A stretch of 64,000 nt of DNA, from the NCBI RefSeq assembly GCF_964058935.1, contig NZ_OZ060372.1:310001-374000 (forward strand), written 5' to 3'. The notes under the pieces were generated by a model, which saw nothing but the letters and a program-made list of their open reading frames with translations, was not told the DNA's origin and made no database searches. Shown here piece by piece: positions 51,895-55,046 of the stretch. Within the stretch, counting starts at the first letter, position 1. Each line of letters starts with the position of its first letter. Both the position numbers and the translations under genes were made by a program. This DNA comes from Buchnera aphidicola (Pemphigus populi) (GTDB lineage Bacteria > Pseudomonadota > Gammaproteobacteria > Enterobacterales > Enterobacteriaceae).

Positions 51895-52065
51895 ATGGCT
51901 GTACAAAAAAATAAACCTACTCGTTCAAAACGAGGCATGCGCAGATCTCATGATAAACTAAATACATCAAATTTATCCATAGATCGTTTATCTGGAGAAA
52001 TACACCTTAGACATCATATTACAGAAAAGGGATATTACAAAGGAAAAAAGGTTTTAAAAAAATAA
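51895..52065 (+). CDS. rpmF: 50S ribosomal protein L32 (RpmF)
   Basis: Small ribosomal protein of 56 residues (E. coli 57). The sequence begins [20 protein letters not shown], then [21 protein letters not shown], with only the middle diverged. An AGGGACC region precedes the ATG. The neighbours yceD, plsX and fabH of E. coli are missing between rluC, rpmF and fabD. Confidence 0.97.
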
Positions 52066-52161
52066 AATTAATTACTTATTATAAATAATACTAAATATAG
52101 TCGACTATTTATTATATTTAATAGTTAACCAGATTAAAAATCTAATTTTAAGGCTATGGAA

Positions 52162-53127
52162 ATGAATTTATTTTCCATGATTTTTCCAGGGCAGGGTATA
52201 CAAAAAAAAGGAATGCTAACTGCTGAATTAGTCAATCATCCTATTATAGTAAAAACATTCAATGAATCATCATGTGCTCTGGGTTATGATGTATTAAAAT
52301 TAATAAAAAATGATACAAAAAAAAAATTAAATAAAAGTGAATTTGCTCAACCAGCAATTTTAACAGTATCTGTTGCTATTTACCGTTTATGGATTTATAA
52401 ACAAGGTCCTTTACCTTTTATGATGGCAGGACATTCTCTTGGAGAATATTCTGCTTTAGTATGTTCTAACGTTATACAACTTTATGATGCAGTAAAATTA
52501 GTCCAATTTCGTGGTAAATTAATGCAAAGGTTAGTACATCATATACCTGTTGCTATGTTGGCAATTATTGGATTAAATAAAGAGCAAATTATTAATATTT
52601 GTAAAATACACAAAAAAAATTCAATTGTGGATTTATCAAATTTTAATTCATTAGATCATATAGTTATTTCTGGACATAAAGAAGCAGTAGAACGAACTGG
52701 TACATATTGTAAAAAAGCCGGTGCTAAGTATGTATTACCACTTGCTATCAGTACTGCTGCTCATTGTAGTTTAATGCACCCAGCTAAAAAAAAGCTCATG
52801 AATGCTCTAAAAAATATTCAATTTAATACACCAATATGTCCTATTGTTAACAATGCTGATGTAAAATGTGAATTTTCCAAAAGAAATATCTGCAATGCAT
52901 TAACTAAACAACTTACTAAACCAGTAAGATGGCATGAAAGTATAGAATATATGGTTAAAAAAGGCGTATCATTAATTTTAGAAGTAGGACCTACTTCTAT
53001 TCTAACGAATATTAACAAAAGAAACATTTTTTTAGAATCGATATCATTACATAACAAAAAAAATTTTTTAAAAGCCCTGAAATTAATAAAAACAAAAAAT
53101 ATGAAAATAAAAAAAAAACTGCAATAG
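52162..53127 (+). CDS. fabD: Malonyl-CoA-ACP transacylase (FabD)
   Basis: Loads malonyl groups onto acyl carrier protein. ATG 52162 is chosen because AAGG (52150-52153) is 8 bases away and MNLFSMIFPGQG matches E. coli MTQFAFVFPGQG; ATG 52156 is too close. The nucleophile Ser is in MAGHSLGEYSALV and the catalytic His in STAAHCSLMHP. It is 321 residues (E. coli 309). The last eight codons, MKIKKKLQ, are not FabD-like: they are the ancestral start of fabG read in the wrong frame. Confidence 0.94.
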   Translation: MNLFSMIFPGQGIQKKGMLTAELVNHPIIVKTFNESSCALGYDVLKLIKNDTKKKLNKSEFAQPAILTVSVAIYRLWIYKQGPLPFMMAGHSLGEYSALVCSNVIQLYDAVKLVQFRGKLMQRLVHHIPVAMLAIIGLNKEQIINICKIHKKNSIVDLSNFNSLDHIVISGHKEAVERTGTYCKKAGAKYVLPLAISTAAHCSLMHPAKKKLMNALKNIQFNTPICPIVNNADVKCEFSKRNICNALTKQLTKPVRWHESIEYMVKKGVSLILEVGPTSILTNINKRNIFLESISLHNKKNFLKALKLIKTKNMKIKKKLQ

Positions 53128-53834
53128 TAACCGGAGCATCTCGTGGGATTGGACTTAATATTGCAAAAAAGCTAATAGAAAAAGGAATTAGAGTTATTGG
53201 AACTGCTACAAACCAATTAGGTATTGATAAAATCGATGATCATTTACAAGACCAAGGAAAAGGAGTAATTTTAAATATAGGTGATTTTTCTACTATCAAA
53301 AAAACAATAGATGAAATCTATAAAAATTTTGGCAATATTGATATTTTAGTAAATAATGCTGGAATCAAAAACGATAAATTATTAATTAATATGAGCCCAA
53401 AAAATTGGAATGATGTATTAAATATTAACTTAACAGGAATATTTTATCTATCAAAATCAATTTTACCTAAAATGATAAAACAACGCAAAGGTCGTATCAT
53501 TACTATTGGCTCAATTTCCGGACATATTGGCAACTACGGACAAACAAATTACGCAACAACTAAATCTGGATTAACAGGATTTCATAAATCTCTAGCATTA
53601 GAAGTTGCGTCTTATGGTATTACCGTAAATATGATTGCTCCAGGACTAATTAAAACAGATATGACTAAAACTCTTAATAAAAAAAAATATGATAAATATA
53701 TTGCAAGAATACCTATGAAACGTTTTGGAGAAGTTAGTGATATATCCGAAGCAGTATTTTTTTTAGCTTCTGATAAAGCATCTTATATAACAGGTCAAAC
53801 ATTACATATCAATGGTGGCATGTACATGAGTTGA
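53101..53834 (+). CDS. fabG: 3-oxoacyl-ACP reductase (FabG), start out of frame (needs frameshift or slippage)
   Basis: NADPH-dependent reductase of fatty-acid elongation. The FabG frame is intact from TAIVTGASRGIG (ACT at 53118) to the end NGGMYM. It has NNAG and catalytic Ser (IGSISGH) and Tyr/Lys (NYATTKSG). Homology places its start at ATG 53101 (MKIKKK-TAIVTG against MNFEGKIALVTG), but ATG and TAIVTG are in different frames across A10 (53109-53118). One added A gives 244 residues, exactly the E. coli length. The first in-frame ATG is 53391, inside the catalytic domain. No ribosome site precedes 53101. Confidence 0.85.
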
Positions 53835-53889
53835 TTGCGTTTATTAACATAATTATCTCTATATAGTAAAATACTAGGATATAGAATAT

Positions 53890-54126
53890 ATGAACACTAT
53901 AAGTATACGTATCAAAAAAATTATATCTAAACAATTGGGGATAAAAGAAAAAGATATCCTTGATCATAATTCTTTTTTAGAAGATCTTGGAGCTGATTCA
54001 CTCGATGCTATTGAGTTAATCATGAAATTAGAAGAAGAATTTAATATTGAAATATCAGATGAAGCCTCTGAAAATTTTAATACGGTAAAAAATATGATTG
54101 ATTATATCAATACTATAATAGTATAA
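53890..54126 (+). CDS. acpP: Acyl carrier protein (AcpP)
   Basis: Carries acyl chains on a phosphopantetheine arm. It is 78 residues, as in E. coli. The modified Ser is in LGADSLDAIELIMKLEEEF (residue ~37). It is acidic overall, in contrast to the basic neighbours. It lies 55 bases after fabG, the usual fabD-fabG-acpP order; fabF does not follow. Confidence 0.97.
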   Translation: MNTISIRIKKIISKQLGIKEKDILDHNSFLEDLGADSLDAIELIMKLEEEFNIEISDEASENFNTVKNMIDYINTIIV

Positions 54127-54156
54127 AAAATATATTTTAATCAAATATTAATACTT

Positions 54157-54175
54157 TAAGTAAAAATTTTACTTA
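54157..54175 (+). terminator. Weak acpP terminator candidate
   Basis: Stem TAAGTAAA / TTTACTTA (8 bp) with a 3-base loop, 30 bases past the acpP stop, followed by TATTTGAAAT. Mostly A/T. Confidence 0.4.
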
Positions 54176-54284
54176 TATTTGAAATATAATTTTCACTTAT
54201 GCAAGTTTATTTATTTCTATCAATAAAAATATTTTAGTATTATATGTAATTAAAATAAAAAAATTTTTATTATTTTTTTTAAAA

Positions 54285-54329
54285 GTTAATATTAATATAT
54301 TTTAATATAAATTAATAAAAAATATTAAC
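54285..54329 (+). terminator. Hairpin before tmk
   Basis: Stem GTTAATATT / AATATTAAC (9 bp) around 27 A/T bases, followed by TTTATTTTTAT. It lies 52 bases upstream of tmk and may end the fab transcript. Confidence 0.4.
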
Positions 54330-54380
54330 TTTATTTTTATAAAATTAAATTCAAAGAATATATATAAGTGATTTCATAAA

Positions 54381-55046
54381 ATGAATAAAGGTAAATTTAT
54401 TGCAATTGAGGGTATAGAGGGATCTGGAAAAACTAATACTTGTATATTTATATCAGAAATATTAAAAAAAAATAATATAAAAAATATAATTTGTGTACGT
54501 CAACCAGGTAGCACACCTATTGCTGAAAAAATACGTCATTTAATAAAAAAAAATCATAAAGAAAAATTAATTAATATAAGTGAATTATTATTAATGTATG
54601 CAGCTAGAATGCAATTAGTAGAAAATGTAATAAAACCGGCATTAAAAAAAGGAACATGGGTAATTAGTGATCGACATGATTTATCTTCTTTCGCTTATCA
54701 AGGAGGAGGTAATGATATAGATATAAAAAAAATTTTTATATTACATAAAATATTATTAGGAAATTTTAATCCAGATTTAACTTTTTATTTAGATATTGAT
54801 CCAGAAATAGGTTTACAGCGTGTTCATGCTAGAGGAATACCAGATCGTATAGAAAAAAATAAACTAATTTTTTTTATACGAACCAGGGATAAATACTTAG
54901 AACTAGTGGGATCTGATCCCAATATTATTACTGTTAATACCAATCAAAAAATAAAAAGTGTAAAAGAAATATTGAAAAAAAAATTAAAAAATTGGTTAAA
55001 AAAACATGATCATAAATCGGTACCCCTGGTTAATAAAACCGTATAA
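54381..55046 (+). CDS. tmk: Thymidylate kinase (Tmk)
   Basis: Phosphorylates dTMP for DNA synthesis. It is 221 residues (E. coli 213). The P-loop reads IEGIEGSGKTN (residues ~8-18). The DRHDLSSFAYQGGG nucleotide site and the LID motif HARGIPDRIEKN are intact. The C-terminus extends ~10 residues beyond the homologue and overlaps holB by 41 bases, in a different frame. Confidence 0.95.
   Translation: MNKGKFIAIEGIEGSGKTNTCIFISEILKKNNIKNIICVRQPGSTPIAEKIRHLIKKNHKEKLINISELLLMYAARMQLVENVIKPALKKGTWVISDRHDLSSFAYQGGGNDIDIKKIFILHKILLGNFNPDLTFYLDIDPEIGLQRVHARGIPDRIEKNKLIFFIRTRDKYLELVGSDPNIITVNTNQKIKSVKEILKKKLKNWLKKHDHKSVPLVNKTV

Follow-up and report, generated by a model that had tools for sequence, protein, structure and literature searches.

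The window, a 64,000-base stretch of DNA analysed as a whole, belongs to a Buchnera genome of 618,636 bases in four contigs (G000:C1:310001-374000). An rpmF-fabD-fabG-acpP-tmk cluster spans its positions 51895-55046, in which the following features were placed.

51895..52065, forward strand: rpmF, upstream gene of the cluster
52156..53127, forward strand: fabD, malonyl-CoA:ACP transacylase (TIGR00128, 316.8 bits against a cut-off of 260.9)
53101..53103, forward strand: ATG at the predicted FabG start position (alignment to 1i01_A), lying in the fabD frame and one base off the FabG frame
53109..53118, forward strand: run of ten A (A10) across which the frame is offset, the proposed slip site; the same A10 is present in loci L004 and L085
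53118..53834, forward strand: FabG (3-oxoacyl-ACP reductase) frame lacking an initial ATG, GTG or TTG (TIGR01830)
53890..54126, forward strand: acpP, intact, next gene of the cluster

The fabD open reading frame encodes 323 aa and ends at TAG 53125-53127, 3' of both the A run and ATG 53101. This ATG is found in the fabD frame, 945 bases (315 codons) from the fabD start, and as the DNA is written, reading from it ends at the same TAG. The FabG frame proper (53118-53834) comprises 238 codons and a stop, and is open over 53055-53834. The stop preceding it is TAA 53052-53054, so that 21 codons, and not the 15 stated in the initial annotation of this DNA, separate the opening of the frame from the T of TAIVTG. 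The other statements of that annotation on the frames were confirmed: no ATG, GTG or TTG of the FabG frame occurs before 53391, where the earliest such codon opens a 147-aa ORF, and ATG 53101 belongs to the fabD frame, whose stop ends at 53127, with the offset falling across A10.

The frame was matched over its full length by the TIGR01830 equivalog profile at 305.4 bits, above the cut-off of 297.75, and by the narrower NF004197 at 303.5 bits, under the cut-off of 332. Residues 2-237 of the frame align over equal lengths with residues 8-243 of 1i01_A, a FabG chain of 244 residues, and the alignment to 6t77_A is gapless. Because of the equal-length match to 1i01_A, ATG 53101 is placed at FabG residue 1: the first residue of the frame (from 53118) corresponds to FabG residue 7, and the ATG lies six codons earlier, counting one extra A. 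With one A added to A10, ATG 53101 would be read as MKIKKK (then TAIVTG...) followed by the 238 residues of the frame, giving 244 aa. The alignment agrees with the proposal, made by homology, that this ATG is the ancestral start. Inspection by eye of the sequence 5' of ATG 53101 found no GGAG-like site, in agreement with the absence of a ribosome site noted initially. The gene carries a single one-base offset, in A10, and FabG is otherwise open through 238 codons, as is typical of genes rescued at poly(A) runs.

A second intact fabG had been named as an observation that would speak against slippage here. In searches of the window's own genome, matches to PF13561 were confined to fabG and pieces of fabI, and the FabG protein as query returned the same two places and no other fabG. 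The fabI gene of this genome (enoyl-ACP reductase; L001, about 1508; G000:C1:273869) itself has a one-base offset at A10, and the fabI ORF of G003 is full-length. Slippage would thus be needed for two fatty-acid reductases.

The comparison of the A run among related strains that the initial annotation had called for showed that two sister species share the ATG, the A10 and the offset. The nearest named relative found was Buchnera aphidicola of Pemphigus obesinymphae (G002, locus L004), whose FabG is 78% identical. Both this genome and G003 (L085), which belong to the window's genus, carry ATG ATA AT, then A10, with an equal offset. In a FastTree phylogeny of FabD, FabG and AcpP (midpoint root), the window's genome (G000), G002 and G003 form one clade, and G001, which has an in-frame fabG ATG and no long run, falls outside it. 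Between the offset sisters G002 and G003, FabG shows a dN of 0.030 and a dS of 0.225, and pN/pS is 0.15 for FabG, 0.28 for fabD and 0.10 for tmk; FabG is therefore under purifying selection between them. When the window's genome was compared with the two sisters, pN/pS of FabG was 0.29 and 0.37, similar to that of its neighbours (fabD 0.28-0.42, tmk 0.10-0.29). The offset is thus common to these species without decay, as in poly(A) rescue. The simplest reading would be that it is older than the split of the window's genome from its sisters and that FabG has been kept since.

To place these genomes in a wider setting, 92 small genomes were compared, of which 74, lying outside a clade of 18 others on the tree, are termed Buchnera-like. 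Sampling of the family covered 198 and 392 genomes, and small genomes were included; the window's own genus and five genera were searched whole and other genera by samples only. The rpmF gene was found 5' of fabD in 74 of 74 Buchnera-like genomes versus 3 of the 18 others. Among the 74, 58 genomes have an in-frame fabG and 14 a fabG that is one A short (G000, G002, G003, G094, G279, G326, G260, G055, G184, G021, G408, G418, G402 and G329); it is one A too long in G395 only and broken several times in G112, and all 18 others have it in frame. The offset frames of G329 and G184 were taken from fabD, with G184 having no ATG within 40 bases. The excess of short over long runs (14 to 1) gives a two-sided binomial probability of 0.001 when genomes are taken as independent of kinship, and parsimony on the tree, where counts of changes are rough, requires at least 10 changes for the 14 one-short genomes. 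Offset genomes occur in neighbouring lineages (G260/G326, G094/G279 and G055/G184), as if the offsets there were long-lived. In G112 (L159), two internal A11 runs, both lacking one A, split fabG, and fabD is broken too, which may reflect either multiple slips or decay.

The idea of fabG as a special case was rejected, since A runs also break fabD in the same loci. Of the 74 Buchnera-like genomes, 14 have such a break, with the run short in 11 and long in 3 (the sign being less sure for the long calls in G428 and G409, which come from overlapping alignment pieces); a further break, in G091, falls outside these 74. By the same method, which misses breaks near gene ends, tmk was broken in 1 and acpP in 0 of these loci, with only 61 of the 74 genomes giving a tmk match as far as residue 190. 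An A10-A11 run at about residues 150-154 of fabD is one A short in six loci of one genus (L092, L181, L188, L189, L192 and L201). The tmk of G094 (L099, about 2638) is 34% identical to that of the window and has a pN/pS of 1.10 against L126, unlike its neighbours, which may indicate decay or misalignment.

Breaks were also scanned for by mutual comparison of stretches of G000, G003 and G001, a procedure from which two duplicates were removed and which misses near-end breaks such as that of fabG. At A runs of at least nine, 19 one-short breaks (9 in G000, 4 in G003 and 6 in G001) were found versus 6 one-long breaks, fabG not counted; T runs of at least nine gave 3 one-short breaks. A further 11 breaks had no A or T run of this length (3 short and 8 long), and therefore not every break is of the poly(A) kind. 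In G000, A runs are one short in fabI, tilS, rsmH, erpA, rluB, lgt, holA, recC and ruvX; the A9 offset of recC recurs in G003. Across the three genomes, in-frame A9 runs (674) far outnumber in-frame A11 runs (18); chance single-base changes should therefore mostly yield A10 runs that are one A too long. The broken A10 runs instead comprise 12 short (10 from the scan plus fabG of G000 and G003) versus 2 long. Such an excess of short runs is to be expected where the gene is rescued by transcripts that gain an A or by ribosomes that shift by -1, and a deletion bias in replication could also be its source. A genome-wide scan for missing starts was too noisy in its broad version, and its narrower version, which missed fabG itself and so undercounts, turned up 7 other A-run offsets near gene starts in the three genomes (6 short and 1 long), none of them with an in-frame start. 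The start-proximal offset of fabG is therefore not alone.

Several individual genes were noted in the course of these comparisons. A pheA-like gene of G001 (chorismate mutase/prephenate dehydratase, an amino-acid gene) carries A11 runs at G001:C1:375081 and 375530, both of them short by one A; it is a relative of G000:C1:404307-405455. The lgt gene is seemingly split in three genomes of the group (G000:C1:452894, G001:C1:411756 and G003:C1:443578-443976), with A10 breaks in two of them and an ORF in the third whose match stops after the first 126 of the 280 positions of the profile. Offsets of one A too many were seen at an A10 of rnpA (RNase P protein) in G003 (G003:C1:15211), an unusual direction, and at the same A12 of an rsmD-like gene in both G000 (24487 of contig C1; G000:C1:24487) and G003 (G003:C1:24460).

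From the offset, its conservation, the constraint on FabG, the lack of another fabG in the searches made and the course of the fabD frame, all of them directly observed, we infer a slip, its transcriptional nature and a resulting fusion. A working fabG whose start is split from its frame by a one-short poly(A) run, and whose transcripts gain an A by RNA polymerase slippage to yield FabG, is the probable explanation. RNA polymerase would slip on A10 and lengthen the run by one A in part of the transcripts, from which translation starting at ATG 53101 would give a normal 244-residue FabG. The same slipped transcripts would lose the fabD stop, such that ribosomes arriving from fabD would make a FabD-FabG fusion (315 + 6 + 238 = 559 residues); unslipped transcripts would give the normal fabD end and no FabG. 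Slippage of this kind has precedent, poly(A) transcription slippage in one aphid and one ant endosymbiont being reviewed with 12-50% of transcripts corrected (PMC5009743). In Blochmannia, offsets are conserved between species with no detectable decay in the account given by PMC3017870, and lacZ reporters with 7-11 A showed insertion to be at least twice as efficient as deletion (other work cited in PMC6260861). Counting against slippage on A runs, E. coli RNA polymerase slips preferentially on T over A runs (PMC6260861). Transcript indels have been measured in Buchnera, with 151 of 157 insertions located in homopolymers, and that study describes no frame-restoring transcription error, which also counts against slippage (PMC5574713). 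The earlier proposal that slippage on the A run yields FabG is nevertheless well supported by the conserved offset, purifying selection, the lack of a second fabG in the genome searches, the bias in direction and precedent, rescue of Buchnera genes by polymerase slippage at poly(A) being of a published kind (PMC5009743).

The same product could arise by a -1 ribosomal frameshift on A-AAA-AAA, either during translation of fabD or from ATG 53101, since its direction equals that of one added A. The slippery heptamer is present in the ATG/fabD frame, plain A runs can shift ribosomes too, and fabD ends just past the run in 7 offset genomes, like classic -1 shift pairs. Against codon shuffles, structure of the RNA 3' of the run, pseudoknots apart, gave z values of -1.5 to 1.4 in 14 of the 15 offset genomes (-0.2 in the window's genome), with G279 (-2.6) the sole one below -2 and the 59 others averaging -0.24. 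The absence of a consistent downstream structure speaks mildly against a programmed shift, and known cases in Buchnera and Blochmannia have been assigned to transcription (PMC5009743); a ribosomal shift is thus less likely than RNA polymerase slippage, and we regard it as unlikely.

It is very unlikely that fabG is a fresh pseudogene from which no FabG is made. Homopolymer frameshifts in Buchnera are commonly read as recent inactivations (PMC3164680), but the shared offset is best explained as predating the split from the Pemphigus-type sisters (FabG identity 78%), the 238 codons hold no second lesion, purifying selection has acted after the offset, and no other fabG was found in the genome. 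An error of assembly or sequencing in the run length is more improbable still: homopolymers are error-prone and the evidence here is assembled sequence, yet the same run and offset recur in three separate genomes, which makes such an error hard to credit, and the one-short counts of 9, 4 and 6 show no excess over the published range of 1-18 per Buchnera genome (PMC3164680). The least probable reading is an in-frame FabG start at a non-standard codon (AUU, AUA or ACU). The codon at residue 1 is ATT in L004, L099, L122 and L126 and ATA in L123, L137, L139 and L196, but no codon is common to the offset genomes (ACT in the window, L085 and L193; GTA in L138 and L197; GTT in L171), and a start at residue 1 of the frame would also shorten the first strand.

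RNA polymerase slippage would join FabD to FabG in the window's genome because fabD, in the frame of the ATG, stops past the run. In G002 and G003, the fabD TAA lies 24 bases 5' of FabG residue 1, before the ATG, and therefore the same slip would give FabG alone. The fusion predicted initially thus follows from the frames of this genome (about 559 aa) and is not needed for FabG to be made. Seven of the 15 offset genomes (G000, G055, G094, G184, G279, G329 and G418) have a fusion-prone layout, versus 9 of 59 others (58 without the multiply broken G112), an association that is suggestive only (Fisher p 0.014, kinship ignored). None of these 59 genomes, scored as in frame, showed an in-frame fabD-fabG fusion at the DNA level. 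Five of the 7 fusion-prone genomes have an ATG 14 to 26 bases 5' of FabG residue 1 in the joined frame. The nearest joined-frame ATG, GTG or TTG in G184 and G329 lies 50 and 59 bases 5' of that residue, inside the fabD frame, the ATG of G184 being 5' of the first A run; the sole source of FabG there would therefore be a fusion or a form of FabG with a long N-terminal extension. Tentatively, and with some doubt, poly(A) slippage may act as a recurrent splice in several Buchnera lineages, with unslipped transcripts giving FabD and slipped ones a bifunctional FabD-FabG.

Rescue at poly(A) tracts in Buchnera and Blochmannia was reportedly described by Tamas et al. in 2008 and Wernegreen et al. in 2010. 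The present case resembles that rescue in its long A runs, one-base offset, constrained and intact gene and offset common to species, but differs in that the run sits at the fabG start codon and that the slip in this genome would remove an upstream stop and join two enzymes. Pairs expressed by programmed -1 frameshifting or slippage are also known from IS orfA-orfB. As in programmed -1 pairs such as dnaX (PMC8254509), the upstream frame ends past a slippery A run and would continue into the -1 frame as a fusion; unlike them, no stimulatory structure was seen here, the pair consists of two housekeeping enzymes, and two sister species have the stop before the run. Homopolymeric frameshifts number 8-18 in 6 of 8 Buchnera genomes, and 1 and 3 in the other two, and are convergent among Aphidinae Buchnera, e.g. 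in murF (PMC3164680). The same gene is likewise hit repeatedly in separate lineages here, whereas the bias in direction and the start-codon location are additions, and the excerpted text of that work names neither fabG nor fabD. No published report of the fabG offset was found in the literature searched, a scope outside which supplements fall, whose gene lists may name fabG. The kind of phenomenon is already in print; what is new is its position at the start codon and the possible joining of FabD and FabG.

By these results, fabG, an essential lipid gene, joins those that the symbiont seems to keep by imprecise copying, and does so at its start codon. The offset state is common to related species and has arisen repeatedly, the run being almost always short. 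If the fusions are made, error-prone expression would create a bifunctional enzyme without a DNA-level gene fusion.
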